A DNA stretch of 64,000 nt from positions 3,094,677 to 3,158,676 of the forward strand of contig BCIO01000003.1 in the NCBI GenBank assembly GCA_001599975.1, in the 5' to 3' direction. A program made the position numbers and the translations under genes. Below, piece after piece: positions 3,227 to 62,480 of the stretch. The notes under the pieces are model-generated. The model saw only the letters and a list, made by a program, of their open reading frames with translations. It had not been told where the DNA came from and did no database searches. This stretch comes from Cystobasidiopsis lactophilus. Lineage: Eukaryota; Basidiomycota; Agaricostilbomycetes; Agaricostilbales; Chionosphaeraceae. How positions within the stretch are numbered: position 1 is the stretch's first letter; each line of letters opens with the position of its first letter.

Positions 3227-4030
3227 ATGCTGTCGAAGACTGTCCTGGCCATCTCTTTGGCAGTCTTGACCCGTGCTCAGAACATAACGTCCGTCTTCTC
3301 GAGCAACGAGGTCGTTCTATGGACTTCGACGCTCTCCTCCTTTTCGACTTGGAAAGAAGTCACGACTTTCCTGTCAACAAGCGACCTCACGACCCACGCT
3401 GTTCTACACCAGACGAATACTATAGTGACCAGGGGCGGACCTGGTCAACCGGACTATACGCTCAGAATTGAGACCATCAACATCGACACGACGGAAATTG
3501 TCCCGGTGGTCACCACTCTTACCTCGACTCGCGAGGTCTCTACGGTCGTGCTCCAGACTGTCAGCGGGGTCTCCACCAAGGTGGACCTGATCACCTCCGT
3601 GTTTGCGGCTCCTGCTCCCCCGGCTCCTTCCGAAACAACACCACCTCCTCCAGCGCCGACTCCCCCGCCGCCTCCTCCAGCGCAGACTCCAGCGCAGACT
3701 CCCCCGCCGCCTCCAGCTACTTCTCAACAGAACTCTTCCACAACGCTCGCGGTCATGACCTCGCTTTCTACCAATATCGCGACGGTCCCAATTACATCCG
3801 CAGAAGAGGTCTCTGGCAGCAGCACCGAGATGCCGGCGCCGCAGAACATGGTGTTGACCCTCACTTCGACTCATTATGTATCCGACATCAATTCACAGGG
3901 CTCGACATCGTCCTCCTGGAGCCGCTTTCCTTCGAACTGCCTTCTTGTTTCTAGCTTGGCCCTCCTCTTTCTGAATGAGCTTGCGGCAAGGTCGTGCTTA
4001 TGGTATCTGTTCTATTGCAGGCGCTATTAA
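3227..4030 (+). CDS. Secreted Ser/Thr/Pro-rich protein, dispersed member of a five-gene family
   Basis: Single exon, 267 codons. A signal peptide (MLSKTVLAISLAVLTRAQ) is followed by a Thr/Ser-rich domain of about 110 residues (TSVFSSNEVVLWTSTLSS, VVLQTVSGVSTKVDLITSVF). Then comes a Pro-rich spacer with runs of PPPPP and AQTP repeats, a second Ser/Thr stretch, and a hydrophobic C-terminal part (NCLLVSSLALLFLNELAA). It is clearly paralogous to the gene at 36985-37692: both carry STW[EK]EV, THAV[IL]HQTN and STK[LV]DLITSVFAAP. It is more distantly related to the three other genes between 32.8 and 36.4 kb. The likely site is the cell wall or surface. Unlike its relatives the C-terminus ends with a polar tail after the hydrophobic stretch, so a GPI anchor is less clear here. 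I recognise no named family. Confidence 0.75.
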   Translation: MLSKTVLAISLAVLTRAQNITSVFSSNEVVLWTSTLSSFSTWKEVTTFLSTSDLTTHAVLHQTNTIVTRGGPGQPDYTLRIETINIDTTEIVPVVTTLTSTREVSTVVLQTVSGVSTKVDLITSVFAAPAPPAPSETTPPPPAPTPPPPPPAQTPAQTPPPPPATSQQNSSTTLAVMTSLSTNIATVPITSAEEVSGSSTEMPAPQNMVLTLTSTHYVSDINSQGSTSSSWSRFPSNCLLVSSLALLFLNELAARSCLWYLFYCRRY

Positions 4031-4136: not shown

Positions 4137-5383
4137 TTACGAGCTCCTAGTCTCCCAGAGTATACTGAGTTTGGAAAAATTACGTTGACGAACGGAACAC
4201 ATGCGTACAGGTGCGAGTTGGTCGTTAGAGTTAGACAGCTCTTCTGGAGGAGCGATGTGAGGTCTGGTGGCAGTGAACTCGGGCTCGGGAGAAGGCGTGT
4301 TAGATGGTGTGGGAGAATAGGCGAACCATGCTGAACGCCCAAAGGCGGATTTGAGCCAGTCCGTGTATCGACTGACGTGGTCCGGCGCACATCCCTGTGC
4401 TTGACAGCTTTCTATGCAGGGGTGCGCTTCCATTCCTTCGACAGTGTCGTCGTCTTCGCCTTCGAGAGGAAGTTCAAAGTCGCAGTACCGATACCCGACC
4501 AAAGCGAATTCGGAGGTGTGAAAGCCTTTCACGCAAGGCCCTTCCAGCATAATGTCCTCGTCATACCGACTTTGGGCATTCGCCGTTCTACCGCAGCAAA
4601 AGTAGGTCCTGCTGAGGCCGGGTTCATAGTCGGTGTTTTGACCATCGTGGGGGATTTGGCACGACGAGGCCGTGTTCTGCAGCTCCGAGTACTGCTCGTG
4701 ACATCTACACGTCCATCAAGAATCCGATAGAAGATTGATCTGACGCATTTCGCATACCGGACATAGTGTAGTGAGTCGTTCGAGCCAGACGCCACCATCA
4801 AGAAGACTTCAGTCGACGCTTTGAACACCTTATCCGAGCGCATTCGATGGCGAACATTCTGCACAGCGATTTGAACTTCGGCGCGTCATTTGCAGCGACA
4901 AAATGCCTACCGCGGCCCATTTGGAGGGCAAGTGGTCAAGTAGCGAAGAAATTGCGGCTGCCTTTTCCGCCTTTGCACCCTTCGCTTTCTCCAGCGCGAC
5001 CTCCTTCTCAACTTCGTAGGCTTCCCGCAAGCGGTTTAGCTCTGCCTCGCGCTGTTGCGTTCGCTCGGCATTTCGTGCCTCGCGCTTTGCCCGCTGCTCA
5101 GGCGTAGTCTCGCGTCTCAAGCCCCGTCCCAGCGGTCGACATAAGTTAAGGGGGGGTGCCTCCCTTGCGGTCGGCATAACCCTATGAAAAATTCAAATTC
5201 GCTGCCCCGGCTTGTGTTATGCCGTCCGCTGGGACGAGGCTTGTGACATGAGTCTAGCTCAGGCGTCTCCGTCTTGACCCCTTCTTTTGTCGAGGCAAGA
5301 CGCTTGTGCGTTTCTTTGGCGGCCAGCAGTTTGCTGGGACCTTTGCCACCAGTGCCCTTGTATGTTTGCTTGGTTCTCGCCAT
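4137..5383 (-). CDS. Predicted protein with histone H3-tail-like N-terminus, charged helix and Cys-rich C-terminal part
   Basis: The ATG at 5383 opens MARTKQTYKGTGGKGPSKLL, then AAKETHKR. This follows the H3 tail ([28 protein letters not shown]) with one residue missing; the positions of K4, K9, K14, K18, K23 and K27 can all be matched. The histone fold does not follow. Instead there is a highly charged stretch (EQRAKREARNAERTQQREAE) that looks like a long helix or coiled coil, then after two predicted introns (4910-4859, 52 nt; 4757-4705, 53 nt; both keep frame) a Cys-rich region (CRTANAQ is out; visible pieces are SRTYFCCGRTANAQ, GPCVKGF, CIESCQAQGC) and a Ser/Pro-rich tail. A 151-bp TIR element with a 10-bp duplication (5096-5266) lies in the helix-coding part. 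Without it, or with splicing across it, the frame is open. I know no protein with this layout. It may be two genes, or a decaying copy; joining all parts into one product is inference. Confidence 0.45.
5096..5266. mobile_element. MITE-like TIR element with 10-bp target-site duplication
   Basis: A perfect direct repeat GCTCAGGCGT lies at 5096-5105 and 5257-5266. The 151 bp between are bounded by imperfect terminal inverted repeats, 5106-5144 and 5217-5255 (39 bp, about 32 matching), with the shared core CGTCCCAGCGG. A third copy of the inner repeat end (GCGGTCGGCATAA) lies at 5167-5179. The element has no coding capacity. A 9-11 bp duplication with long TIRs is typical of Mutator-type (MULE) non-autonomous elements, so that is the best guess. 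The arms differ by about 18 percent, so the insertion is not recent. It sits inside the H3-tail-like gene. Confidence 0.7.
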
Positions 5384-5471: not shown

Positions 5472-8469
5472 CTAGCGAGCAATGGACACGTGTAGGGGTT
5501 GGTGTAATAGCAAATGAGAGGGTATTTCTACAGTTGTACATCCGACCGAGATGAGGCAGTCAGCCCTGGCGCAGGTGAGTCGATACCTCCTTGCGGCTCG
5601 GGCGTGTGCTGTGATCGCCTTTCCATTCAGCATCTCCTTAAGAGCTGAAGGGAAGTGGAAGCTCACCCCTTTAGGAATCCCTCGGCCACCCAACGGAGTC
5701 GACACGCCAGGAGTGCCTTCACCCAATGTCTCTGCCACGCTTGAATCTTCAAACGGTCTCGGGCCGATAAGCTTAGTGACGTCCTCTCTGAAAAGGAACG
5801 GCATTAGGAAGACCCAAGTGAATTGGTGGTAAACCGATCAACGCACCTCGAGATGACCTCCTTCTCCAAAAGCATTTTGGCGATCTGCTCCACTTGGTCC
5901 TTGTGGGTCGTCAACAGCTCAAACGTCCGTTGGTGCACGGTCGCCACCAGCTTGCGCACGGCCGCATCCAACATCTCGCCCGTCTTCTCACTGAACGGCT
6001 TTTGGAACGCCTCGCCGTCCCGGTTGCCATACGACACTGGCCCAATATCCGTATTCATGCCATCTGTGAAAAGAGTTCGAGCCCATCAGCTCAGGGTCGA
6101 ATTGACAGGGCCAAAGCACTCCACGCACAGTTGGCGCAAATCTCGAAAGCCATCTTGGTGATCCGCTGCAAGTCGTCCTGCGCGCCAGTCGTGATCTTGC
6201 CGAAGAAGATCTCCTCCGACACTCGCCCGCCGAGCGTCATGCACATTCGGTCCATGAGCTGCTCGGTGGTGTACAGGAAGCGCTCCTTCGGAAGGTAGCT
6301 GGCGTAACCCAGAGCGCCTGTGGGGAATCAAAGCTCAAGTCAGGCCTGGAAGTCCAAAGCAAAGAGATCGAGCAACGCACCGACGCCTCTCGGCACGATG
6401 GATACCTTGAGCAAGGGATCGGCGTGCTCCAAGAACCAGCCGCACACAGCGTGGCCGGCCTCGTGGTAGGCAACCGTCTTCTTCTCTTCTGGGCTGAGCA
6501 CACGGCTCTTCCTTTCCAAGCCGGCAATGACGCGCTCGATGGCCATGTCAAAGTGCTTCTCGCCCACGAACTGAGCATTGAGTCGGGCAGCCACCAAGGC
6601 GGCCTCGTTGCAGACGTTGGCAATGTCGGCTCCGCTGAAGCCGGGAGTGTGAGCAGCGAGCTTTTGAGACAGGTGGGCGATTAAGGGCGAGACCGGCACG
6701 TCGTCCGGCGTCGGGGTGGAGTACATAGATTCGAACTGAGAGGTGGATGGCCGTTGAGGTGTGTCCTCGTCTATTGCTGGAGCGGCAGAAGCTGCTACCG
6801 GAGCAACCTCGGGCGTGGTGGCGGCAGTTGCAGTTACGATGGGTGAGCCTTTAGCTGGGGTGGTGTCAGAAGAAGGAGTTGAGGTCGCGTCTCCCGACGA
6901 AGGTGCATCAGAAGAGGAGGCGGAAGGAGTGGGAGCATCTTCGGCAGGAGTGGCGGCGAGAATTAATGGTTTGAGGTGGACGCGGAAGATCTGCCGCCGC
7001 CCAGAGACATCCGGCAGGCCGATGGCGATTTGCCTGTCAAAGCGACCAGGTCGCATGAGAGCAGGGTCCAGGACGTCCGGCCTATTGGTGCCGGCCAAAA
7101 CGACGACGTGCTCCGAAGTGCCAAAGCCGTCCATCTCGACCAGCAGCTGGTTCAAAGTGGACTCGCGCTCGTCGTTGCCGCCGAACGAGGCCGACTTGCC
7201 GCGCGATTTGCCAATAGCGTCAATCTCGTCGACGAAAATGATGCAGGGAGCGTTCTTGCGGGCGTTGGAGAAGAGGTCGCGCACCCTCGAGGGGCCAACG
7301 CCGACGAACATCTCGACAAACTCTGAGCCAGAGACGGACAAGAACGGCACGCCAGCTTCGCCTGCTGTTGCTTTAGCCAGAAGCGTCTTGCCGGTGCCCG
7401 GTGGGCCAGAGATGATGGCGCCCCTTGGGATTTTGGCACCCAGCCGCTCGTACTTGGCCGGCTCCTTCAAAAACTTGACAAACTCCATGATCTCCTCCTT
7501 GGCCTCGTCCATGCCGGCCACATCGGCAAATTTGGTCTTGATGTTGGAGTCGGCAGTGAACATCTTGGCCCGCGATTTGCCAATGCCAAACAAGCCACCT
7601 CCACCACCACCGAATGGGCCTCCTCCTCCACCACCTGGCATGCCACCACCTGCAGCCCGACGAGAAATGAAGTAGAGGATGCCGACAATGAGCAAGGTGG
7701 GCGTAAAGTTGAGCAGGGTGGACAGCAGCGGCACTTCGTCGTGGTAGGCCACCGGGACGCGCTCGCTGGAGGGGATGCCGAGCTCGTGCTGGGCGTCGTC
7801 GAGCTTGCGCTCAAAGGCCTCAACGGAGCCGATGGAGAAGAAGTAGGTCGCCCGGCCATCGGCGGCCGGCGATTGGGGGTAGAGGACGCCGGTGGCGTTG
7901 GAGTGCAACTGGACGCGGACCTTTGAGCGGTTGACGACGACGAGCTTGTCGACCAAGCCCTTGTCGAGGAAAGCCGTGCGGAACTCTTGCCAGGTGATCT
8001 CCCTCGAGCCGGACTCGGAGTAGGCGGTTTGGAAGGCGAGGTAGGCGATCAAGCTGGCGATGACCAGCGCTGGGATAGGTGGGCCATTGTTTGGCGACGA
8101 GCCGTTGCTGTTGCTGTTGTCGGAGTTGTTGGAGGACTTGTCGTCCTTTTTGCTGTCCTTGGGCGAGGCATTGTCCGATGAGGCGGCCTTGTTGCCCGGC
8201 TTGGACTTTGACAAGCCGCCAAAGAACTCTTCCAGGCCTGTAAATCCCGACCAAGACCCTATGTAAGTGACTCGATCGAGCGCAGGCCAGCAAAGGCAGG
8301 GGAGCAACGCACCCGGTGGCACGGAATCCTGCTTCTCGGCTGCTGGCTTCTTATTGTTCTCGGTAGCAAAGCGCAGGAGCGAGAACGGCTGGCTGCTGAG
8401 GGCGAGCGCAGACCTTCTCAGCGTCGCCGCTGTCCGCAGAGCTGGCGCACGCCGGAGGACGGAGTGCAT
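5472..8469 (-). CDS. AFG3: Mitochondrial m-AAA protease subunit (Afg3/Yta10 type)
   Basis: ATP-dependent zinc metalloprotease of the inner mitochondrial membrane that degrades unfolded membrane proteins and matures some imported ones. The start [16 protein letters not shown] (8469) is an Arg-rich presequence. Two membrane segments follow ([35 protein letters not shown]) with an intermembrane-space domain between, then a Gly-rich linker. The AAA domain has Walker A GPPGTGKT, Walker [13 protein letters not shown] and the second region of homology [16 protein letters not shown]. The protease has HEAGH and a downstream acidic ligand in [12 protein letters not shown]. Introns are predicted at 8312-8259 (54 nt, in frame), and near 6357, 6131 and 5848; the joins restore [14 protein letters not shown] and [14 protein letters not shown]. 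About 85 Ser/Thr/Ala/Pro-rich residues are inserted between the AAA core and its helical lid (about 6958-6700). The last exon is uncertain: the stop may be at 5560 after one more intron, or at 5472. Confidence 0.93.
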
Positions 8470-32282: not shown

Positions 32283-32834
32283 TGTTGGTAAGAATCGGGT
32301 GGGAGGAGGAGAGAGGGAGCGAAGTCGTCTGGGAAACTTGCAGAGAGGCGGCCAAACTTTGGGCTTTGAAACTTGCGGTGCCACCAGCGCGCGCTTTTTC
32401 AAGCAGGCAGAATTTTTTGGCCACGAACGACGTTAGGGTCATCCTCTAATATCATTCTGATGATGGCCAAGCAATGTCGGATCGAAGTTGCCAGCTTGGA
32501 AGGCCGCCATCGCCCAGCCTGCCGCCTGCCAAACCTGCCTCAAAATTCAGGCCAAACCTCGAGTGCCTTGGCTGTGGCTAAATGTCTTTCCTCGGCGCTT
32601 GGACTTCTCGTTTTTTCAAGGCATTCACGAACACTGGGACCAGCCTGCGCGCCTGACCATTCTGAAAGGCTCTGAAATCCCTTTGCCTTTGTTTTTGCTC
32701 CCTGCCCAACACCCAGGTCGGCCACGCCCTGCCTTGTACTCTTCAGACGACCTTTGGATCTGCATTTGGAGGTCGGCAGCCAGGACTTTGTAGCCAAAGC
32801 GGGTTGCTTTGCTTCTGGCCTTTTTCGCGCGGCC
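32283..32834. promoter_or_regulatory. Divergent promoter region, RPS3 / secreted family
   Basis: 552 bp. The RPS3 side carries a pyrimidine tract on the coding strand (32299-32326). The other side carries a block at 32649-32681 that is repeated before the paralogue at 34480 (see separate entry). Confidence 0.45.
32649..32681 (+). promoter_or_regulatory. Upstream block shared by two tandem secreted-protein genes, copy 1
   Basis: CGCCTGACCATTCT then AGGCTCTGAAA, about 155 bp before the presumed start at 32835. The same block, with a few changes, lies at 34314-34348 about 130 bp before the ATG at 34480. Both are followed by a pyrimidine-rich leader (TTTGCCT...). Either it is a leftover of the gene duplication or a kept promoter element. 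Confidence 0.5.
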
Positions 32835-33513
32835 ATGCGACCGACGTTCGCCTTCTGTTTATTGCCTGGCCATCGACACCAGCCGGGCGCAATCCGTCTC
32901 CTACTGGACTTCTACCATTCAGCAAACCACCACGATAACCCGAGTGGCAACTCACCTGCGAACGGCCTACCTTGCCACCGACATCCAGGCGCTCTCGACG
33001 ACCACGCTCTCCACTGCCCTTGACTTCGCTGACGGGGTGATGAATATGGGCCCGGTCATCGTCGAAGTGCCGTACACCACCGAGACGCTGACCTCGCATT
33101 CGACCAAGACGACCGGCACCAAGGTCCTCACTGACCTGTCGACCGGTCTTGTCGCGGCCACCGCCGTTCAGACCTTGACTGGCGCTATCACCTTCACCCC
33201 TCCTCCTCCTTCCTCGAACGCGTCCGCGTCCACGCCTGCATCGTCTGCCGCAGCCAGAGGCACAACTGGATCACCTCAAGAAGTCGTCTCTACCCTTCTG
33301 TCCTCTTCCGACTTGGTAGTCACCACCACCGAGAGCCCCCCCCCCCCTACCCAATCCAACGCGCCTCCGCCCGCTCATCTAGGACTGCGCACTGTCACGT
33401 CCACCAGCCTCTACTACCCACCGCCCGCTCCCGCTGACAACTCGGCTCGCACTGCCGCCCCTTTCGCTCTTGGACCCTTCATCTGCCCCTGGTTCATCTT
33501 CGTCCTTCTATGA
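32835..33513 (+). CDS. Secreted Ser/Thr-rich family member with damaged 5' end
   Basis: Clear paralogue of the next gene (34480): SVSYWTSTIQQTTTITRVAT, TDIQALSTTTLST, YTTETLTSHSTKTTG, VLTDLSTGLVAAT, then Pro/Ser-rich sequence with a C-run-coded PPPP, the family motif LGLRTVTSTSLYY, and a hydrophobic C-terminus (FALGPFICPWFIFVLL) fit for a GPI signal. The main frame has no ATG between the last upstream stop (32791) and the mature part. The ATG at 32835 opens MRPTFAFCLLPGH, a signal-like start in another frame; it is 2 nt shorter than the matching stretch of the 34480 gene. A 37-nt splice could reconnect the frames but would remove the signal. So either a 5' frameshift or an unseen upstream exon. 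Confidence 0.5.
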
Positions 33514-34479
33514 AAGTAGCGTCTACCTCTGGGCCGTGAACTCGTGAGTTTCTTACCCTCCTCTTCTCTCGCTCCTCTTTCCACCTGCACAAACAACAAC
33601 ATGATGTTTTCCAATTGCATTTTTCTGGCACCTCTTGTCACCGGTCTGCTTTTCCTTCTTTCTTCCTCCCCTTTATGGCTCGCTCTTCAGCGGACGATTG
33701 GAGAGGGGGGAAGTTGGAGAGGCAGCAATGGTACAAAACTCCGGACTCTTCTGAAATTTCCCCCCTCTGCTGTTCAAGCTTTGCCTTTTTCGATTTTGGA
33801 GGATTGGAAATACTAACTTTGATGCTTTCTTGTCTTTAGGTTTGTCGTAGGACTGATGGGAAGCGGAGGGCTCAAGTTGTTTGGGGGCGGGCAGTCGTGT
33901 TCGCATTTTGTAGATGGCGGCTCGCTGAAGCGCAGGTTATATTATTATTATTGCAGCATACGACCTCTGCTTGATCGGCTCGCGCGAGGGTCATTTGCCC
34001 GCTTGTGCCTTCCCGCGCTGGTGGCGTCCGGCGCTCGGCCGCCGAAGCCCCTTGTTCCAGCTCCCTCCGCCAATTTTCGTTAGCACCCACTAATACGGAT
34101 AACCCTACTTCTTACTGATTGTCAGTTGTGGCCTCTTGTTGCCCAAGCGGCGCCTGCCTTGCTTTTCGCTGCGGCTGCGACTCTTGTCAGCATCCGCACT
34201 TGTCGCCGCCCTGAGCACTCGCCTCCCGCAAAACTCTGCCTCCCTCCCTTCTAGAGCATGCTTTCCGTACTTCGAATGACAATGGCCTCTTTGCCGTCTA
34301 CGTGAACCATTCTGGCGCCTGACCATTCTCAGAGGCTCTGAAACGCCCATTTGCCTCCGTCTTTCTCTGCCCGCGCCCATTGTCCGCCATCTAGGTCTTG
34401 CGTACCTACTTTTATTGCGAAAAGAGAGCGCTGGCACTGCGCCGCGATACGTCTCTGGCTCTCCCGGATCAAAGGCCAG
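33514..34479. other. Intergenic region within the secreted-protein array
   Basis: 966 bp, with CT-rich stretches near 33550-33680 and no coding signal. Its right end holds the second copy of the shared upstream block (34314-34348). Confidence 0.45.
34314..34348 (+). promoter_or_regulatory. Upstream block shared by two tandem secreted-protein genes, copy 2
   Basis: GGCGCCTGACCATTCTCAGA then GGCTCTGAAA, matching the block at 32649-32681, with the gap to the start codon about 130 bp. Confidence 0.5.
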
Positions 34480-35160
34480 ATGCGGTTTTCGACCTTCGTT
34501 GTCGTCGGGCCGCTGGCGTTCGGTGGCAGTCATGCCCAGTCCGTCTCGTTTTGGACTTCGAGCATACAGCACGTCAGAACGATAACGCAGGTGGCGACGA
34601 GCCTGCAGACGTCCTGGTTGGTGACAGACATCGAGTCGCTGTCGACAACCACGCTCTCCACTCTAGTCGTCATGGGTGTCGGCTACTACAATGCCCAGGT
34701 GGAAGTTGAAGAAGCCTACACCACCCAGACGCTCACTTCGCATTCGACCAAAACGACGGGTTCGAACGTTCTCACCGACCTCTCCACCAGCCTCATCCTG
34801 TCCACATCTTTGGAGACCTTAAGCGGCGCTGTCACCTTCCAACCTGAACCTGCTACGACCAAGCCTGCACCTACGCCTACGCCGGCGCCAAAGGCGTCCG
34901 ACAGTGCAACAGGCACGATGCAAGAAGTCGTCTCGACCATTCTATCCTCTTCTGACTCTGTCTATGTCGTTAGCGAGTCCTCCCCGCCTATTACCTCTAC
35001 GCCATCGCCGGCTCAGCCTCTAGGGGTCTTGACCATGACTTCTACGAGCACGTACTACCTCACTCCACCGCCCGCTGATGATTCGGCTCGATCCTGCACC
35101 ATTTCTTCGGCCATCGGCTTCCTCGTCATCTTTACTTCGCTTATTGGCATTGCTCTGTAA
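34480..35160 (+). CDS. Secreted, probably GPI-anchored Ser/Thr-rich protein
   Basis: Single exon, 226 codons. Signal peptide MRFSTFVVVGPLAFGGSHAQ. Domain of about 110 residues: SVSFWTSSIQHVRTITQVAT, WLVTDIESLSTTTLST, AYTTQTLTSHSTKTTGSNVL, LETLSGAVTF. Spacer rich in Pro, Thr and Ala (KPAPTPTPAPKA). Conserved late motif VLTMTSTSTYYLTPP. The C-terminus SSAIGFLVIFTSLIGIAL is hydrophobic to the last residue, after a small-residue site (DDSARS), as in GPI-anchored wall proteins. Closest relative is the neighbouring damaged copy at 32835. Likely cell-wall or surface protein; no known family named. Confidence 0.75.
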   Translation: MRFSTFVVVGPLAFGGSHAQSVSFWTSSIQHVRTITQVATSLQTSWLVTDIESLSTTTLSTLVVMGVGYYNAQVEVEEAYTTQTLTSHSTKTTGSNVLTDLSTSLILSTSLETLSGAVTFQPEPATTKPAPTPTPAPKASDSATGTMQEVVSTILSSSDSVYVVSESSPPITSTPSPAQPLGVLTMTSTSTYYLTPPPADDSARSCTISSAIGFLVIFTSLIGIAL

Positions 35161-35584
35161 AAGAGTCGCTCTGTGACAGGACGCGCGCCCGACAGGGCCT
35201 CCAAAGTGCGCTTTTTTTGGGCTCCGGGCTGTCCCCTTCCGTGCCTCATAATGCGAGAAGGGACTCAGCAGTACGATGACGCAAATCGAATCTCTCGATA
35301 TCTGGGGCTTTGGCTGATCTTACATCTTGTTGCGTCGAAATGGACGGCTTCTGTAATCGCGTCCGAGTTCTGTTCACCGTATAAGAAGTCGTCCTTCTCG
35401 CTTTGGCTGTTGCCTCTCTCCCACGAAAAGCTTTCTGGTTCATTGGCTTACGTTTAACTTGTGAGATGACTCTTTCCTTGCCACTTTGAAAGGCTTGGGG
35501 ACTGACGGCCGTGGCAAGGATTGCGCCTCGTCTCGGGCCTGTTCAGCTGAAGCCCCTTCTGTGCTTTTTTGGTCACTTGTTTCG
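35161..35584. other. Intergenic region within the secreted-protein array
   Basis: 424 bp. No gene seen. A stretch near 35490-35520 (TTTGAAAGGCTTGGGGACTG) is faintly like the shared upstream block of its neighbours. Confidence 0.35.
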
Positions 35585-36361
35585 ATGAGAGAGGGAACGC
35601 TTGCTGTCCTTCTGGGCTACCTTTTGGTTGCCGTTTCGGCGGACGTGTCTTATTGGACTTCAACTATCCCGATGGCCACTACCGAATTCCCCCAAACAAC
35701 TACACAGGTCTTTACCGCATTGATTGTCAAAGTGCTTTCCCTTCACGAAACGCATACCCTCTATAGTGGCAAAACGCCCTATACGACCGTGGTTTACGAC
35801 GAGGCCCAGTCAACACCGGCCACCGTCATGAACTTCTTCACCAACGTCCAGACGCTTATTGTCACCTCAACATCTTTCAGTGTCCAAACCGGCGCGGTCA
35901 CTTTGCCGCCTGTTCAAGCTCCTCCGGCAGAAACTAGTCCACCTCCTCCACCCATCACCACTCCCCCTGCTCCCGGTACTCCTCCTGTCCCTGCTCCCAC
36001 TCCTACCCTCACGTCTCCTCCATCCTCGCGGGATACGGTGTCCTTTCCATCTACCTCAGACAGCACCACGGAAGCAGCGTTTGATACCAACAGCACCCAC
36101 CCAGCCTCAATGGAAGTCAGTCTATCCACCCTCGTCTCCGTCCTTAACACGACCCTCATCAGTAGTGAAGCTGAACCTAATGTTCTGACTATCTACTCAA
36201 CCCACACCTTCTACATCAGCCCTCCCACTCCGCCGACCACCCCGCCAGCAAATGAAAGCAGCGGCGGCGGAAGCGAGGTTGGTAACGAAGGTGCTCGTGT
36301 ACGCTTCCTGGATTGGAGCATTTGCTGTTCTCTGGTGCTGTGCTGGTATAGCTTGTTTTGA
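35585..36361 (+). CDS. Secreted Ser/Thr/Pro-rich protein, divergent family member
   Basis: Single exon, 258 codons. Strong signal peptide MREGTLAVLLGYLLVAVSA before DVSYWTSTI, the same mature start seen in the other copies (SVSYWTSTI). Then TTTQVFTALIVKVLSLHETH, YTTVVYDEAQ, NVQTLIVTSTSFSVQTGAVT, a Pro-rich linker (PPPPPITTPPAPGTPPVPAP), a Ser/Thr stretch and the family motif VLTIYSTHTFYISPP. The C-terminus has Gly/Ser (ESSGGGSEVGNEG) and then a hydrophobic stretch (SICCSLVLCWYSLF), so a GPI signal is possible. Probably cell-surface. It stands between the two subfamilies in the array. Confidence 0.7.
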   Translation: MREGTLAVLLGYLLVAVSADVSYWTSTIPMATTEFPQTTTQVFTALIVKVLSLHETHTLYSGKTPYTTVVYDEAQSTPATVMNFFTNVQTLIVTSTSFSVQTGAVTLPPVQAPPAETSPPPPPITTPPAPGTPPVPAPTPTLTSPPSSRDTVSFPSTSDSTTEAAFDTNSTHPASMEVSLSTLVSVLNTTLISSEAEPNVLTIYSTHTFYISPPTPPTTPPANESSGGGSEVGNEGARVRFLDWSICCSLVLCWYSLF

Positions 36362-36984
36362 AGGTGAGATTTCCGATTTCTGTGCTGAGCCCGTCTTCAA
36401 TTCAGTGGTTTCCAGGAGCCGATGCGTGTCGTTCTGGGTGGCGAGTGGGCGGGCATATTTGTGTTCATATATATCAAGCTATAGAGTGTCACCAATCGAG
36501 CTGCCACTGGTGGCGTCCCAGAAAGCGCGCCTCCAACCGGGGGCGGCCCGCTGCCTTTTGGAGTTAACCTCTCATTCTTCCCTCCCCTGCCTTGAAGGCT
36601 CTCCGTACGAATATGTTTGAGACTATCACAGTGCTGTATCGCCTTCTTCGGTGGACTTTCACCTTGTGGTTTCAGACTTGGCTGCTCGCTCTGTTCTCGC
36701 TTGGGACCTGTTGTCAGCCTGTCGTGCCTCAAGCTTCCGCTGTCACTTGGCGATGTCTTGATGTAGTATACTGAGACTGGCAGAGAAACTCTTAGACTAT
36801 GTCAGGGTGCTCCAGAACTCCCAGAACGTCCAAGAATCCGTCTTCCGAGTCCCAGGGGCCATTTCGCTTCGAGCACCTCCTCCTCCCTCGGCCGCCATCC
36901 TTCAATCCTCCAAGCTGTCAGTCCCTGCATTCACTTAAGCAGGCAGCGAAGACTGAACTGAACTTATTGCCAGCAGCCCTTCAA
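36362..36984. other. Intergenic region within the secreted-protein array
   Basis: 623 bp, no gene seen; open frames here lack coding character. Confidence 0.4.
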
Positions 36985-37692
36985 ATGATCTTGAAGGCAA
37001 TGGTCTCCGCGGCGATGGCTGGGCTGGCCCACTCCCAGAGCCTGACCTCTGTCTTATCCAGTAACGAGCTTGTGCCATGGACATCTACTCTCTCGTCGGT
37101 TTCCACCTGGGAAGAGGTCTCAACATCATTGTCGACCAGTTATTCTCTCACGCATGCAGTGATCCACCAAACCAACGAGTTATGGACCGATTCCAACAAA
37201 GACACACCCTATTTCCATGTCTACACGACAGAAACCATCAATGTTGATGAAACTCTGACTGTTCTCACTTCGACTATCACCTCTTTGTTCACCCAAACGC
37301 TCTCCACAGTCGTCCTTCAGACTATCAGTGGCACCTCCACTAAACTTGACTTGATCACTTCCGTTTTTGCCGCCCCTACGCCACCACCAGACCCGACTTC
37401 CTCCTTACCGCTGCCACCGGCTACGTCAACCTCCTCGGACCCTTCTGTCTCTACTTCATTGTTTAGCCTCGTCGTAGATCCTTCGACGTCGACGTCGACG
37501 TTCACCGGAGAAGTATCAACCAATGACGAACAGGCCTCGTCGACCCCGCCTAATGGAGTGCTGACTCTTACATCGACATCGACCGCTTATGCGCCCGCCT
37601 CTCATTCCTCTAATCTCTCCCCTTCTCCCTTGGTCCTATTGTTTACTGCCTTTTCGATCTGGCTGATGGTTCTGGATCAAGTGCTGGAGTAG
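36985..37692 (+). CDS. Secreted, probably GPI-anchored Ser/Thr-rich protein
   Basis: Single exon, 235 codons from the ATG at 36985. Signal peptide MILKAMVSAAMAGLAHSQS. Mature part: LTSVLSSNELVPWTSTLSS, STWEEVSTSLSTS, THAVIHQTNELW, ETINVDETLTVLTSTITSLF, TLSTVVLQTISGTSTKLDLI, TSVFAAP. A Pro/Ser/Thr region follows, with a CGACGT triplet-like run coding STSTSTFT near 37488. The late motif is NGVLTLTSTSTAYAP, and the C-terminus SPLVLLFTAFSIWLMVL ends with a short tail (DQVLE): a GPI-like signal. Best match in the window is the gene at 3227, 33 kb away, not its direct neighbours, so the family spread by more than simple tandem copying. Confidence 0.75.
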   Translation: MILKAMVSAAMAGLAHSQSLTSVLSSNELVPWTSTLSSVSTWEEVSTSLSTSYSLTHAVIHQTNELWTDSNKDTPYFHVYTTETINVDETLTVLTSTITSLFTQTLSTVVLQTISGTSTKLDLITSVFAAPTPPPDPTSSLPLPPATSTSSDPSVSTSLFSLVVDPSTSTSTFTGEVSTNDEQASSTPPNGVLTLTSTSTAYAPASHSSNLSPSPLVLLFTAFSIWLMVLDQVLE

Positions 37693-43289: not shown

Positions 43290-46200
43290 CTAGCGCCCCG
43301 TGCGTGAGTTGTAGGCTCTGACGACTCGCTCCATCTGCATCACGTCGATACTTCAGCTATGACGCCTGGAAAGACTGTTAACGACTCACGTGTGAGAAGA
43401 TCCAAAGACGAGCACTTTGAGAGGGAAGAGCCAGGAAGGGGCCGGGCACGTTTTTCCTCAAGCGAAGGGCAATGCCCTTGGGCTCGAGGGAGATGGTTTG
43501 GAGGTCGGACAGGGGGACGTCCCATTGGACTTTGAGCTTGAGCGAGCGGATAAGGAGGATGCGGTTCTCGGTGAGCAGGACGACCATGTCGTGCTCTTGG
43601 CCCTCCTCTTGCTGGATGTCGAGGTGTGCGACGTAATGCTCGGTAAAGTATTGGCCGTTTTCTAGCGATTTAAGCCAAGACTGTCCCATCGCTTCGCGCT
43701 CCTGGAAAGGACGGAGCACGCCGTCCGAGGCGATGAAACGCGGCAGGCGGACGCGGTCAATCGCAGAGGCCTCGAAAACCGTCGTGGTGTTCCGGATGCC
43801 CTCTGTGACGCTGTTTGCTAGGTCGAAGATGCCGACCGCGGGCTTGGTGACCACTCTGAAGGCCGCGCTCTGAGCGATGTGCGCCGTGAACCGAGATGAA
43901 AGGGACACACCCAACAAGGCCTTTGCCAAATCCCTTGAAGAAGCCGGCTGCACCTTCGCGTTCAGCACCCTCAAGCGGTTTCCTCTGCGCATCTACATTG
44001 AAGCTGTGGCCAATCTGATCTGCAAAAGAAGGGACTCACTGCCAATCCTTCGACACCCGATGCCACGCTGGAGAACAATGATGAAGCGCCGTTGGTGACC
44101 CCATACAGCGCATGCTTCGGGCGGTTGCGAGCTTGTCGCATTCGCCGCTGCGTCTGGAACTCCCGATCCAAGGTGGCCGCGGAAAGACCTGTGCAGATGC
44201 TGTTTCAGTGACAATTTAGGAATGTTCAATAAAAGGCTTGCTCGCCTTTGCCGATGCTTCCCGTCACCTTGGAGACACTGTCGCTGACGCCAAAGACTGT
44301 CTTGCGGACAAAGCTGGTGGCACCCTTTGCGATCGAATAGCCGAGCTCGCGGCTGCCGTGGACGACAAGGCCCTCGTAGGGAGCGTAGAAAATGTCGCCA
44401 ATGCCGCTGCTGACGTTCTGGAACAGGCCGATTGGGTTGCCCAAGAAATCGGCCGACCCCAGCAAGCGATACAGCTGTCCGGTGAACTGAGCATTGTAAT
44501 AGGCGATGATTCGTTCCATCAAAACTGGAATGGAGGCACGCGTGTCTTGGAGCATCAGACTGCTCAGCTGGATGGGCGCGTCGTTGATGTTGCCCAGTGC
44601 CATAGTCAGCGCGTTCAGGAACCAGGCGGCGAAGTTTCGGTTGTCCAAAAAGGTCTGGTTCTCGCTGGAGTTGACTTTATCGGTTCGCATGAACGACAAA
44701 TCGAGTTGAATGGGCTGGAGGTGCAAGAGCTCGAAGTAGATGTCGCTGGCCTCTTTGCTTGGCACCGGCTCGGGAATCTCGGTGAGAGGCTCGTCGAAAA
44801 GCAGATCCTCCACTTTGGAGACCGAGCGCGTGAGGTCGGAAACGAACTCCATCAAGGCGAAGACGAAGTCCTCGTCGATTTCGATTGACATTTGTTGGAG
44901 GAGGAAGGAGGCGTATTTAAAGTACATAACGCCGTGAGCTGTAGCAAGGAGGATGAGGCCTGGCTATCTGGCGAGCGGAAGTGCAACGCACATTGGTCCT
45001 TCATGAGCACCACGGAAGATTGGAGGGAAGGGTGGGCTTCCAAGTCTTTGCCGTCCTTCGGAATGACACTGGGGTAGAGGAGCAGTGGAAACACGCCACC
45101 GAAGCTGAGGGATGTAGATTCGTCAGTTCAGCATTTGGGTCAACAATGGAGATCAGCACGAACAGCTGATTGTCGATCTGGATCCACTTGCAGTCGAGCG
45201 TCACTTGCTGAGACACAGCCGTATCCACAAATTTGAACAAAAATCCGCGGAAGCTGGCGTAAAACAGCTCGTGCATGCCCTTGTTGACCAAAGACAGGCC
45301 TAGGCCTTCGTCCATCTTGACCTGAACGGTGAATTGGACGGGCGCCTCGGGCTCTGCGACCTCGAAATCAAAGTCGCGCAGAGAGGCCACGGACTGCTGG
45401 CGCGCAGGGACGCTGCCAGCGGTTGGACGGCGCTGCAGCTTGAAGATGTTGTCCTCCTCGACGTAGTCTACGAACGTCACAACCTGGGTGTCCTTTTCTG
45501 CCTTGATGTCTCCGCTGACCAACTGTGGCCCAGCATTGATCCGGACCTCGAAGGGGCGGATGGGCCCAATTTCCAGGATGTTGAGGTGATGCGCATTCTG
45601 GTTCTTGCTCTGCTGAATAGAAAGAGTCTTAGCCCTGTCGATCGGGTCGTCCCAGGTGTACAGAAGCTCATCGCCTTGCTTGAGCGTGTACTTCACAGCG
45701 GGCGGGAGCTGTCGAGGCGCCGAGCCAGGCTCGCGTGGTGGGTCGGATTGCCACAACACAAGCTCGACTTCTGATTCGTTGCGCAGGGTGAACGGCCAGC
45801 TCGATGTGGCCTCCGAGATCTGCAGATGGACACAAGCCGCATCCAAGAGCGTTTCGACCCGAAGCAGACTCTCTGTCACTTGGTCGGCCGAAGGGCAGCG
45901 CAAGGAAACGCTGCCAACGTCGGACATTTTGAAGTGCGCTGTCCATTGATTTGAATCGGCCAAAGAGATTTGCATCTCTGCCGGTTGCCCTTGGAGAAAG
46001 TCCATGAATGGAACGCGCTCGCCAGGTGCAACGACGCAAACTTCGGTCGCGCCTCGTTGCCGCACCTTGATGGCCACGTCCATGCGGTTGGCGATGAGGT
46101 AGCGCGGATAAAGAGTAAGCACTTTGGTCAGCACGTACTGAAGGGAATGCATGAGCGCGGATCCAGCGGCAGAGCGAGCAGCCACCCACAATGCCTGTGC

Positions 46201-49200
46201 CCTCCGAGACCCTCAAGCCGACACGATACTCCATGCCGCAGCTGGAGCCGTCTTGGGTCTTCTGAATTCGACTGTTCTTCAAGGCGACTTCGGTGATGGT
46301 CCCGACGGCTTCGAAACTTAAGGGCGTTGACCACTCGGACTCGCGGACGCGGAGGAGCGTGCGATTGCGACGATCATCGCTGGGGTAGGCAAAGAGATAG
46401 GCCTTCTCTTCGTCTGGAATCGTCGAATCGTTCTCGGCCTTTTTGCCGTGGCGCTTGAAGACGTTGAGACCGGCGGCATTCTTCGCTTGAGAGTAGGCCT
46501 CCTTGAACTTGAGGGAGAACGGGCCGCCAGTCTTGTTCACGAAGACGAAAGGCGAGTACACTTGCACCTTGAAGGTGCCACCTGAGCGAGGATAGCGAAC
46601 GTAGTTGAGGCGAAGGGGCAGCGTGAGATCGTCCTTGTCGGTCAAAGGCAAGGTGGCCTCGATGGGCAGGTCGTCTGTGAGACATTGCGTTAGCCATCTT
46701 TGTACCTTTTTCAGTGGGATTGCACTGACCTGGATTGTCAGTGTTGATAATTGAAAATTCCGAGCGGTTGTACCACTCGTGCTCCAAGTCGATGCTCAGC
46801 AAAACCAAATGGCGAAGGTCAGCCACATGGATGGGCGAGATGCCGCCCTTCCGCAGATAGGACCGATAGTTGTGCTCCTTTGCCTTGTCGTAGATCCGGA
46901 AATTGAAGTTGAAAGGAAGGCAATTTTCTACTTCGATGGGCGGCCGTAGGCGCAACGAGAGGCGAGGGTAGCTCTTGAGGAGCGGGTCCTCGCGATCATG
47001 CGAAGCGAAAGCTTGCAGAAGAAAAGGTTGCTTTTGGCGTTCGCCTTCGCCGGGAGGGCAGGTGAGAGTCCGGGCCGGGCGCCTGATCAGGTCCTGCCAG
47101 TGGAAGGCTTGGGTCGACCAGCCGTACTTGAACCCAGCGTCAGGACGGATCCGTATACGGTCGTGGTAGGCCGCCTCAATGGGAACAAAGCCTTCCTGGC
47201 CGGGCGCAATTTTGAAGACCAGCTTGGGTTTGGCGGAGGCGCCTTCCGAGGCGGCAGGGACGATGGCCATCTCGATCGGTACCAGTGTCTCGTTCTCGAC
47301 TTTGATAGTCGATCGGAAGGTGACCACCTTGACGTTATCCTTCAGCTCCACCTGGCAGCAGAGCCGATGCAGAACTTTGTCCAACTTCGGCTTGAGCGGA
47401 TGAATGTGTTCGCCTTCGCGGTCGACTGAGATGTGACGGAGGTCGTCCCAGCCCATGTCAGGGATCGAGATGGAAAGCGAGTTGTGGCTCGTTGCCATAA
47501 CGTTCTGTGGCCGCGATTCAGTAAGCCTGCTCGGGGGCAAAGCGAATTGCGCACCTCTCGCATGGTCCGCCAATCGTCAAAGCGCCAGGGCGTGTCTTTT
47601 CCGCTCTTCACTTCGACAGGCGCTTGGTCAGTGTGGCTGTCATTTCGAAGCTTGAGCGTGTGGCCCGTTCGATTGCGGATCAAAAATGGCGCATTGGCTC
47701 CGCGGTTCTTCTTGAGTACCGCTTCGCCTTGCGCATTCCAAATCGCTAGGGTGGAGCCCGCCAGGTCGATGAAGGTCGCTGTTAGGTTGACTTCCAAGCG
47801 CTTGGTCGACTCCAAAGCCAGCGACCACTTTCCGTCTGATCGCGAGGCATTGACTTGGAATTCCCAGGGGTCGACCAATGGCTCCCAATGAGAGGTGGAG
47901 AGGTTGAAGAAGTTGATGAAAGGTTGCAAGATGACGCCGGCGCGCAGCTGGTAGAGACAGGTGAGATAGGGTCGGCTTAGATGGGAGAGCATTTATCTCA
48001 CATCGCTTGACCAATCCGTCGCTCTGAACATGAACTTCTGGGTCTTCAAGTCCAACATCGGCAGCTCGTGCATGTCCCCGATGAGAATGAGCTGGAAGCC
48101 GTCAAAAGTGGCCTTCAACTGCGCAGATGCAGATGGAGGGAGGTCAAGTAGTGATTAAATTGGAACACAAGGAGTTGCCTACGTTCTCGCGGGCCATGAT
48201 GACCTTTGGGCGCAAGGCGATGCTGCTGGTCCTGCCTCGGTGCGCAGTTGATTTTCGAGTGGTGGGCGGAACGGCCAACTTATCGGTGTTTGCCGGCGAT
48301 GGCTGAGTTGCTACCGAGCCGGATAGCTCGATGGCCCGATTGACAATGGTTTTGGCCAGCATGATATCTCGGTAGCTGACGCGTAAGACGATTTCGGTCA
48401 CCGCCACTTCGATGGACATCCCCTTATTGCCAGCCGTGGCTCGGCTGTCGGAGCTGAGGGTGATCTCCATGGGATCCAGGAAGCGGACCCGATTCTTCAT
48501 GTCGTCCATCTTGGCCAGAGCCATGCCAAGCTTGCTGATGTTCAGCACCAGGATGCTTTGTTGAGCAAGTTCCAGCTGGCTGACGGAAAGGACGATAGCC
48601 TCCGAGTCGGAACGAGTAGGATCGGCAAGCAAAAAGACCCTGGCGTCCACAATGTTGACCCTGAATGCGAATGTCATGGCCGAGTCAGACTCGGGGGCGG
48701 GCGTCACGGCAACTGTCAAGAGTTCTTCGTCGGCCACCGCTGTCTCTTGGTCTTCGCCACTGGGCTCCGCGCCGAGTTCAGCCTCTACTACTGGCGGGGT
48801 GAAGAAGTTCGCAAGAGCAAAAAGCGGGTCAAGCGAAAAGATCAAAGTTGGCGTGTCGAGGGTGACGTTGGCTACCGCCGCCCGTTCCTTGCCAGCCGAC
48901 ATGCTGAAGCTGAGCATGAGCTGGTCAGTCTTGTGGTGACTGTCGGCGTGCTTCCCGTCGTCGGCAAGTTGGGCGTTAAGTGGCTCGTAGTGCGAGGCGC
49001 TTCGGTGGTGCTTGCTGGCAGGAATGATCTCCCGCCACTTGGTCGTCCGCGCATAATTTGTGTCGACCATGCGGAATGCTCCGATGCCAACTTCGGCCTC
49101 CATGCTGCCGTCGTTGAGCATTTTGAGGTGCGCGTGCGTGCCGTTGAAGGCAAAGCGAGCCAAGCCGGACTGCTTGAGAGAAGCTGGCGTGGTAGCATTG

Positions 49201-52200
49201 GCACCATACAGGTCCAAGGAGACGGTGTCGACTTTGAAAGTCACTTCCATGGAGGAATGAAGGGCGACGTTGTCGCCGGCAGCGTTGTGACCGACGACCG
49301 GCAATTCGGGAAGAAGGTCGACCGTCAAGTCTGGCGACGAAGAACCCGCTTTCGGGGTCATAGCCCGGCTTGGCGGCTGAGTTCGCGCCAGCAGGATGTC
49401 GTCCTCTTCTCGCTCTGCGTCGCTTGTCGAAAAGACCGCCGGAATGCTCTGCGACAAGGCCAAAAGGAAGGCGTATTGCTGTTGCGTGAGCGTCATCTTC
49501 ACATCTTCCAGGCTCGATGTGACCTGTTGGCTTATGAGACTTTTGTCTCCAAGGGCGAATTTGGGAAGCGTACCATCATGCCCGGCTTCAGCTGGTGCTT
49601 CTCCCCAGTGTCATCTTCCATGACGACATTGATGCCCAAATTGAGGTCTTCTAGCATGTCCAGTGTGTCCTGGCCAATGTGCGAGGCCAGCTTGATGGAG
49701 TTCAAGCCCGCCTCGATGATCTGTTCGCCGCCATCTTTGAAAGCGTTGTGGGCGAAGATCTCGCCGAGGTGGGCCGTCACGAGATCTGTTGACGTGGAGT
49801 TTCTAGGGAAGAGCACGATGGGAGTGTTGATGATAACGTCGTAGGACATTTTGGTGGCGACTGCGGCCTGATTGGTGGCGGCCATTCGAGCGGCATCCAG
49901 GACAGCCTTCATGCGCGCAAACTGGGTCAGAAAGCGCAGCAGACGATGCACCGGCTCTTCTAGGAATGTGAACTGAAGCGAGCCAGTCCGGAGCTGGAAG
50001 TGGGCGTCGTAGCCGGGGTAAGGCTGGCCGTTGCCTTCCAGCTGGGAGAAGGTCTCGTAGGTGAAGTCGGCGACTTGATCGCCTTTGATTTGCAGCAGTC
50101 GGCAGAAGTCATCGTGCTGAGAAGAGTGGGCGTTCAAGTCGTCGGCGAAAAAGAGATTGCCGAGTCGCCCGTTGACTCGCATTGTTGGTCCTCGCAGCAA
50201 GACCGAGACGTCGCCGGCGGATAGTTCCAGGGTCCCCAGGCGCTCTCCGTCATTGTTGAGGATGAGGACGATACTGTTAAGCTTAACCTTGACGCGCAGC
50301 TTCTCGCTCGCCGGTTGAGGCACCACCGTGAGGTCCGCCTCGGCATCTTTCTCCTTGTCATCCGGTGAGGGCAGAGGCGCTGCATCTTGTGGATTCGTGA
50401 ATGTAGCAAGGATGAAGTCGAACAGCATGAGCTGTACAAAGGGCGTCGTGAGTCTCGACGCTCCCGAAGCCACCTAAACAAGCGAAGCGCGACTGACAAT
50501 GCTGCCCCTCGTGACAATGATGTTCAATGTCGACATGCGGACGTCGACGCTCTGCGTAGAAGGTCAGCATACCCATCTTTGGGCCAAAGGTTGCAGGCCA
50601 ACCAACCTGATTGAAGCCTTCGTAGACGGTCATGAATTCGGGGCTGTCAGGGTCGCACTTGGAGTAGCGAATGGTGACCAGGTCTTCGTGGTCGTGCGAG
50701 CCCTCAGCCGAATCGGCTGCCTCGGAACTGACCAGCTGCTTGAAGTTGGCTTGGTCCGCGTTCACCATCTTGTTTTGCACCTCGAGCGAGCGAAGGGCAA
50801 TGTCGACCGACATGTCGTAGTTCCGTAGCGTAAAATTGAGGCGCGAGTCGGAAAGCACTGCGACAGCCAGTAGGAGGTCCGCTTCGCCATTGGGGTGAGA
50901 TTTTGAGATTGCCACACTGAGCCGATGCACCGAGAAATCGACTTGAAACTTCTTTTGCGCCGCCGTCGCCGCTTGCTATGATTTGGCCAGCTGCTTTAGT
51001 ACAAAGCCACCTGGAAGAAGTCATGGCTCACCGAGTCGGGCAGATCTGGCACGTCAAAGAACTGGTCCTGCTCTCCGTCTTTGCCTTTGTCCCCATCGCC
51101 CTGATCCGAATCATCGTCGCTAAGTTCGATCTCATCTTCGTCAGGGTACATGGGCGCTTGGGAGAACGACATGCTTTTCCGCCGCTCCTTGAGCTGCGGC
51201 TTGGCAGGGTCCGGCTGCTCCTTTGGTGCCTCCTCTTCAACGGGCGGCAAAGAGAAGCGGGGGATGGCACAATCCAAGATCTTCATCAAAGCGCGGTACT
51301 TGGTGTCCGAAAAGTCAATGGCCAAGTCGGGCAGGTGGCCAGAGACCTTGAAGGCAGTCAGGCTGGGGATCTGCGGGACGATGCAGCGCTCGGCCAGCCA
51401 GCTCATATTGATGCGCTCGAGGATGTGCAGCGTCGAATCGACCTTCTCAGATGCCAACGCATCCATGCATGCTTGTAGTGAATTGCCCAAGAGGACCTAT
51501 TAGTCGCCAAGTCAATGCACAGAATGAGGTTTCGAAGCTCAAGGATGTAAATGAACAACCAACCTGAGTGTCGGTGAGCTCGACGTGGAACTTGTCGTAC
51601 ATGAGGTCCTCCAGCCGCTGCCAGTCCTCCTCCGAGTACTGCTCGCTCTGCTTCTCGCGCACAATCTTCAAGCTGTTCTTATCCGCCATCTCGGAAGTGA
51701 CGGAGATGTGACCGGCGTCGACAACGGCGTGGATGCAGTTGTCCTGGGTGATATCCTCGGGGATGATGATGATGGGTGCGTTCATGTCGATGCGCAGGTC
51801 GACCGTCTTGTGCTGTTGCAGCGCATACTCCAGCCCCGCCCGCGTCTCTTTCCGGATGCCTTCGAGCGTTTCCGACGCCACGTCGACCAAAGCGGTAACC
51901 GACTCGAGCTGCGAAGCCGGCGGGCGGAAGAACTCGACGATGCTCTCCACGTAGCCGGCGTGGTAAAAGATCTCCATGTACCTCAGCCGCACCGTCAGCG
52001 CCGTGTCCGCCCGCTCGTCCAAAGGGTTGTTCTCAAACTTGACGAAGAAGAACGGCTTTTGCTGCGCGCCATCCTCAAGCAGCGCAGGGGAGGAATCGCC
52101 TGACTTGTCGGCTTTGACGGCGACGATCTGGGCGTGCTTGGTGTTGGGCCTGGTGCCGTCGTAGACGCGCATGCCGCCAAGTGCGCACTCGGCTTCCAAG

Positions 52201-60323: not shown

Positions 60324-60708
60324 TCAACCACAGGCTTCGTCAGAGCCACATTCGTCTTCGCGCTCCAAGAGGCACTTTGGCCGAAGACGTCCAGCTCTCT
60401 AAACTTTTGCCGGCCTCAGACTGCTTCTTGCTACTGCAGGTCAACCCTTAGAACCTGTTTTGATCGTGCGCTTGGGGTTTGAGGGATAGCGCGGCCTGTG
60501 CTGCAGCCTGTTCACCTTCGAAGGGTTGATCGCTTGGCGTGAAGGTATGGCACTCTCGTTGACTGTTGCTCTCCATAAAGTGCCAACTGTGTATCGCAGA
60601 GTAACGTGTGCTGGTGCCTGCGAGTCGAAGACAATAGCAGCTTGCGTGCAAAGGTTGGTCTCTCGTCGCCTTTCGGACTGGGCTGGTGCCCACACTTGCA
60701 GACATAGA
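60324..60708. other. Divergent intergenic region
   Basis: 385 bp between LSM1 and the first F-box-like gene. The F-box-like frame stays open back to an in-frame ATG at 60547, so an N-terminal extension of 54 residues cannot be excluded. Confidence 0.35.
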
Positions 60709-62001: not shown

Positions 62002-62480
62002 AGGTGCGCCACTGTCTCATGTTCGGTCTCACCATACTCATCGATCGCTCAGCCCCCGCCTCACGATGGCGAAGACGGTGGCGAGCGCGTTGAAATGGAT
62101 GGTGGCAAGGCGCAATGCATTTCCACAATTATGACCTGCCTACCTGGCTCTCGGGCGTTGTACTTCAGACACGGGGACGAGCTCATATTCCACGTTATGA
62201 CTGTGGCCGATGTGCACCAAGAGCGTCACTAGGGAGCCAACTCCGAGTCCACCGAAGACAGACCTCGATGCGCAAAAAGCACTTTGCCCAGCAACGTTGT
62301 GCCTCGACTTTGCTTTGAGGAACCCAGCAAAGTTTTCCCATTATCTCTGGACTCCCAGCGCTGCGTCAAAATTTGTGCTGTTGTCTGGCTGCAGCCGATC
62401 CCGACGAGTTCGAAGTTGAACCCAAAGTAGGCGCGTTCTTGCCTTGGACATTAGCCAGGCTGAGATGCGGCGAGCACAGC
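62002..62480. other. Intergenic region between the F-box-like copies
   Basis: 479 bp without a gene. The last about 10 bp before the start codon partly match the sequence before copy 1, as part of a near-identical block that runs into the coding region. Confidence 0.4.

Follow-up and report, generated by a model that had tools for sequence, protein, structure and literature searches.

Organization of the locus

The window, which is the whole 64-kb stretch of DNA that was analysed, contains a minus-strand open reading frame (ORF) that starts at an ATG at 5383 and encodes a protein whose residues 1–38 match histone H3. The features of the locus are listed in Table 1. An earlier preliminary description presented 5383–4137 as one gene in which the H3-like tail is followed by a charged segment and a Cys-rich part over two in-frame introns. 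The charged segment, the Cys-rich part and both introns are retained here at the level of the sequence, however, the locus is not a single continuous gene, because a MITE-like insert that the preliminary description overlooked separates the tail from the frame of the body. The insert is located after codon 42, between the tail and the helix.

Table 1. Features of the H3-tail-like locus, in window positions
Feature	Position	Strand	Description
ORF as assembled	5117..5383	-	88 aa; tail and element-coded residues, then stop
Exon 1	5257..5383	-	H3-tail-like N-terminus; codons 1–42 plus one base; includes one copy of the 9-bp duplication
Target site duplication, copy 1	5257..5265	.	9 bp
MITE-like element	5105..5256	. 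(unassigned)	152 bp; 52-nt terminal inverted repeats (77% complementary); Mutator-like form
Target site duplication, copy 2	5096..5104	.	9 bp
Exon 2	4911..5095	-	Charged, probably helical segment
Putative intron 1	4859..4910	-	52 nt; GTAGGC..GTGCAG
Exon 3	4758..4858	-	101 nt
Putative intron 2	4705..4757	-	53 nt; GTATGC..GTGTAG; branch motif not found
Exon 4	4137..4704	-	Cys/His-rich, putative zinc-binding stretch, then low-complexity C-terminus; stop at 4137–4139

Several other genes lie in the window. The minus strand features an FtsH/m-AAA-type protease ORF at 6340–8469 (Pfam AAA, E 8.6e-44; Peptidase_M41, E 2.6e-15), in which a Ser/Thr/Ala/Pro-rich stretch of ~117 residues separates the AAA domain, ending at 484, from the AAA lid, starting at 602; this stretch may be an unrecognised in-frame intron. 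The same strand carries a multi-exon VPS13-like gene at 44226–53621, of which the two scanned ORFs match VPS13_N (E 2.9e-150) and VPS13_M (E 2.2e-20). Ser/Thr-rich, probably secreted proteins are encoded on the plus strand at 3227–4030, 32794–33513, 34342–35160, 35465–36361 and 36796–37692. Two clear pairs are found among them, 3227 with 36796 (51–54% identical) and 32794 with 34342 (54–55%), and 35465 is weakly linked (27%, E 4e-4); no Pfam match was found in the two members that were scanned. The plus strand also contains a tandem ORF pair at 60490–62001 and 62319–63776, which share 41% identity over ~437 residues and have an F-box-like start by eye, with no Pfam match at E 0.001. An Rfam scan returned nothing at gathering scores and no tRNA was found.

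The H3-like N-terminus

A phmmer search of the tail against the PDB gave a best E of 9.2e-4, and at E ≤10 it returned 126 distinct sequences, the best 60 of which are all H3-type chains. The BLOSUM62 score of the tail against yeast-type H3 is 83. In a comparison of the 983 ATG starts of the 64-kb window that are followed by at least 25 open codons, the tail's own included, the next-best start scored 38. Shuffling the residues of the tail gave a mean of 27.2 (sd 5.3) and a maximum of 57, and 0 of 20,000 shuffles reached 83. The copy of the H3 tail claimed for the start of the protein is therefore real, based on the phmmer E value and on a score far above the shuffle maximum. Basic N-termini are common and the phmmer E is modest, but a chance resemblance of such an N-terminus to the H3 tail can hardly be credited when neither the 20,000 shuffles (≤57) nor the 982 other ATG starts (≤38) come near the observed score, and this explanation was rejected.

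The H3-like stretch covers ~37 residues and represents the conserved H3 N-terminal tail in a divergent form, with 23 of the 38 H3 positions identical when the Met is counted. The identical residues are A1, R2, T3, K4, Q5, T6, K9, T11, G12, G13 and K14 as well as P16, K18, L20, A21, K23, K27, S31, T32, G34, V35 and K36. The alignment to yeast-type H3 has a single gap at A7/R8 and a single added residue ahead of G33. Seven of the eight H3 lysines are retained (K4, K9, K14, K18, K23, K27, K36) and K37 is lost; all four threonines are kept. Only one of four arginines remains, with R8, R17 and R26 absent, and likewise one of four serines, with S10 and S28 absent. The substitutions include S10 to G, R17 to S, R26 to H and S28 to R. 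Retention of 7 of 8 lysines was matched by none of 200,000 permutations, with the alignment held fixed and optimised beforehand. A Fisher test of lysines (7/8) against arginines (1/4) gives p 0.067, and against all non-lysines p 0.11; the lysine-over-arginine contrast is suggestive and is not significant alone. The ATG at 5383 has A at -3 and G at +4.

The body of the protein

The preliminary description stated that the H3 core does not follow the tail, and the searches bear this out. No histone domain was found after the tail in Pfam, either with the separate pieces or when the exons were joined and the first 260 residues searched. The top PDB H3-chain score is 22.5 bits for the tail alone and is the same for the first 260 joined residues. 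A few H3 chains gain ~2 bits when the body is included, for example 7by0_A, which rises from 19.6 to 21.9 bits in an alignment that extends to residue 84; this slight gain is not counted as a histone core. A histone-fold core downstream of the tail was rejected on the basis of the empty Pfam result and the unchanged top score.

The two putative introns are supported by the sequence in that both are short, maintain one consistent frame, and feature GTANGC-type donors with CAG or TAG acceptors. Intron 2 has alternative acceptors further on, which would give introns of 66 and 81 nt, and the 53-nt acceptor was chosen by frame.

The training set for the codon scores consisted of eleven long ORFs from the window, three of which have a Pfam match, the rest being unscanned or matchless. 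The coding mean of 0.32 (sd 0.19) comes from those same ORFs, and wrong frames average -0.21. Exons 1–4 score 0.14, 0.18, 0.15 and -0.04, respectively, and in every case the gene's own frame outscores the other five. The signal of exon 4 is uneven. When exon 4 is divided into six 31-codon pieces, the scores range from 0.26 to -0.38, and two pieces that start at 4610 and 4424, both of which contain cysteines, are not best in frame. Length alone proves little: of 20,000 placements made at random in the window, genes included, 951 had a stop-free run of 189 codons. Our reading is that the gene is real and weakly biased in its codon use, its C-terminal part being the least certain. The scores, which are lower than typical, may mean that the gene is weakly expressed, fast-evolving or decaying.

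Exon 4 features a Cys/His stretch that we regard as a putative zinc module. With regard to zinc-domain identity, searches by sequence gave 0 matches in the PDB and 0 in NCBIfam, and Pfam gave 0 for exon 4 as well as for a 72-residue piece. A match of the 260-residue piece to Imm2 (Pfam, E 0.079) is far below the cut-off of that family and was taken as chance. An AlphaFold prediction of exon 4 that was run without an alignment has a mean pLDDT of 31.3, too low to be informative. By eye, the order of Cys and His residues is similar to the CHORD zinc domain pattern, with a CC pair and, at the end, C-x4-H; however, the spacing of the first pair differs. No CHORD profile match was found in Pfam at E ≤10, a search in which the HMMER filters can drop weak matches.

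The insert between tail and body

A 9-bp target duplication together with long terminal inverted repeats is typical of MITEs of the Mutator superfamily. The element has both of the features by which MULE-type MITEs are commonly defined, and its shape fits a Mutator-type MITE. The 9-bp duplication is exact and abuts the ends of the inverted repeats directly. As single-stranded DNA the element folds back on itself, with a z of -7.0 relative to 200 shuffles, and no coding signal was found in its three gene-strand frames. The 64-kb window contains no second full copy; the matches consist of the element itself, its own arms, and three stretches of 12–13 nt. An 11-nt piece of the repeat, allowing one mismatch, occurs at four sites in the window, two of which are the element's own, and this is no more than expected by chance.

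The insert adds 161 bp, which is not a multiple of 3, and this shifts the frame and leads to a stop after codon 88, so that tail and body are in different frames in this assembly. When the empty site is reconstructed by removing the element and one copy of the duplication, the frame of the tail enters exon 2 without a stop, and all four exons together amount to 326 codons.

Alternatively, this strain could also make the full protein if the element were removed or bridged by splicing. Introns derived from TEs have been described (PMC9860276), and on paper 128 in-frame GT/GC-AG pairs extend across or into the element; they include a 65-nt GT-AG pair (5180–5116) and eight pairs of 44–101 nt that share a donor at 5140. 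Both putative introns of the gene pass a simple cut on the donor and acceptor scores, whereas none of the 45–100-nt candidates that begin in or near the element passes it, which makes splicing of the element very improbable. It follows that, at least as assembled here, the gene is probably broken by the element.

Relatives and control loci

No paralogue was found in the window, where the joined protein gave self matches and one 15-residue match with an E of 4.6. In genome contigs from a collection without fungal genomes, 11 stretches were retrieved with the joined protein and 0 were confirmed as relatives. A search of viral contigs with exon 4, in a collection that is likewise without fungal genomes, gave three pattern-matching stretches and 0 confirmed relatives, and a pattern of the start plus two residues gave 0 in viral contigs.

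The base rate of the H3 start was determined with a DNA pattern for MA(R/S)TKQT, which retrieved 115 viral and at least 119 prokaryote loci from non-fungal collections. Four of these at least 234 control loci are H3 genes (L134, L167, L186 and L204). The remaining 230 score ≤52 against the H3 tail, well short of the 83 of the tail described here, and many of them are short chance ORFs. No other H3-like tail on a foreign body was found among the best 25 of the at least 234 loci, where the ceiling is 52. The four H3 genes are eukaryotic, one of them with an intron after K14, and are found in records labelled as bacterial MAGs; they are probably misbinned eukaryote contigs. A viral protein starting MARTKQTRTNATPGF is present in at least 5 of the 115 viral loci (L024, L028, L050, L069 and L087) and is H3-like in its first seven residues, not beyond. 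Among the literature matches listed, neither the titles nor the starts of the abstracts describe a fungal protein other than a histone that bears an H3 tail, which is weak evidence of novelty.

The locus could also be a neutral chimera or a dying gene, formed when an H3-tail fragment happened to join another gene, with the MITE as one more lesion in a decaying sequence. We consider this unlikely. Insert aside, the two-intron reading has no stop or frameshift, the lysines are retained at 7 of 8 positions, and the gene's own frame is the best for every exon, although the broken frame, the low and uneven codon scores of exon 4, the result from the viral and genome contigs (non-fungal collections) and the frequency of 189-codon open frames among random placements are all what a dying chimera would give. 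The simpler version offered by the preliminary description, a decaying H3 fragment that lies beside unrelated sequence, fits less well, as there is no H3 core and the frame is stop-free once the insert is removed.

Interpretation of the tail

The best explanation of the locus, which we hold tentatively and at a little short of even confidence, is that the gene specifies a fungal protein that is directed to chromatin and carries a mimic of the H3 tail, which would combine an H3-type nuclear-import signal with a K4/K14-type ligand. A fungal origin of the gene is probable, and the short introns and the gene content suggest a basidiomycete. The uninterrupted form would encode a nuclear-gene product, a chromatin-directed non-histone protein. 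The Ala at position 2 suggests that Met1 would be removed, giving a mature N-terminus of ARTKQT as in H3. The tail may then stand in for that of H3, with a Kap123-type import consensus and with K4 and K14 offered to the enzymes and readers of H3, and the body would consist of the charged segment and the putative zinc module. With the MULE-like MITE after codon 42, this allele would most likely yield the 88-residue product or nothing. A non-histone protein with an H3-tail-like peptide, as a histone mimic would be, is found in the sequence, with the body joined to the tail only in the empty-site reading.

The residues R8, S10, R26 and S28 shape the chemistry of K9 and K27. Because these residues are lost, the retained ones appear to favour K4/K14 ligands and H3-type import over K9/K27 methylation. 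The GGKGP block of the tail resembles the context of K14 acetylation, and K4 is located within an intact ARTKQT. Crystal structures and binding tests have defined the Kap123 consensus as small-K-small-(X)6 or more-K (PMC5677370); by eye, the tail agrees with it, as G-K-G occupies the K14 position and another lysine follows nine residues later.

The same consensus raises the alternative that the tail is a borrowed nuclear-import signal alone, derived by copying of, or convergence with, the part of H3 that binds Kap123, and that it serves neither as substrate nor as decoy for histone-modifying enzymes. This is rather unlikely, because ARTKQT, K4, K9, K27 and K36 are also retained though they are unneeded for import; it does account for the agreement with the consensus (PMC5677370), under which R8, S10 and S28 are dispensable for import, and for the retention of K14 and K23, the two Kap123-binding positions.

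Returning to the H3-tail mimic, the preliminary reading of the protein in these terms survives in part. The tail on a non-histone architecture, the lysine register, and exon frames that are the best of six (unevenly so in exon 4) agree with it. As the assembled allele carries the MITE-like insert, the proposal that the protein, if made, could be a decoy would hold for a different allele, for an ancestral one or for a spliced form that is unproved.

A bolder and doubtful extension is that the gene represents a putative fungal family in which a near-full-length, lysine-preserving copy of the H3 tail is placed on a zinc-type body. Such proteins would be soluble or tethered stand-ins for the K4/K14 axis, free of the R8/R17/R26 and S10/S28 controls, that load or titrate chromatin enzymes, and a strain-polymorphic MITE would uncouple the tail and free an 88-residue tail peptide. 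If true, the tail would be a natural separation-of-function tail that could show which marks can act off the nucleosome. A tail that keeps lysines and drops arginines and phospho-serines would offer a simple system in which to set an import signal against a mimic of the histone code. For this strain the claim is limited by the insert that parts the tail from the body, which at the same time would allow a natural comparison should both interrupted and empty alleles exist.

Comparison with known systems

The element resembles Mutator-like MITEs, as that class is commonly defined, in its length of 152 bp, its 52-nt inverted repeats, its exact 9-bp duplication and its non-coding character in the gene-strand frames; one full copy is present in the 64-kb window. 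Introners with terminal inverted repeats and target site duplications exist, but those of fungi reportedly carry neither (PMC9860276); as an introner, the present element has only weak in-frame splice candidates. In Dothideomycetes, hAT transposons have captured H3-like genes or fragments between their inverted repeats and amplified them (PMC6710886, PMC3538342). The locus is similar to these in having H3-derived coding sequence outside an ordinary H3 gene and tied to mobile DNA, however, a core-less tail lies here outside a small element that is inserted in the gene. A transposon-captured H3 was rejected for the 152-bp element, because the tail is outside its repeats.

Compared to histone H3 itself, the protein has an identical ARTKQT start and shares 23 of 38 positions and 7 of 8 lysines, whereas the tail is not followed by a histone domain. 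The SNAG domain is short and is not a colinear copy of H3, unlike the copy at this locus, which covers ~37 residues. The SNAG-domain factors Snail1 and GFI1 recruit LSD1 with an imitation of the H3 tail (PMC12612597), and they share with the protein described here a non-histone N-terminal peptide that resembles the start of H3. The known histone mimics named in the cited papers copy a short stretch only, whereas the tail at this locus is a colinear copy.
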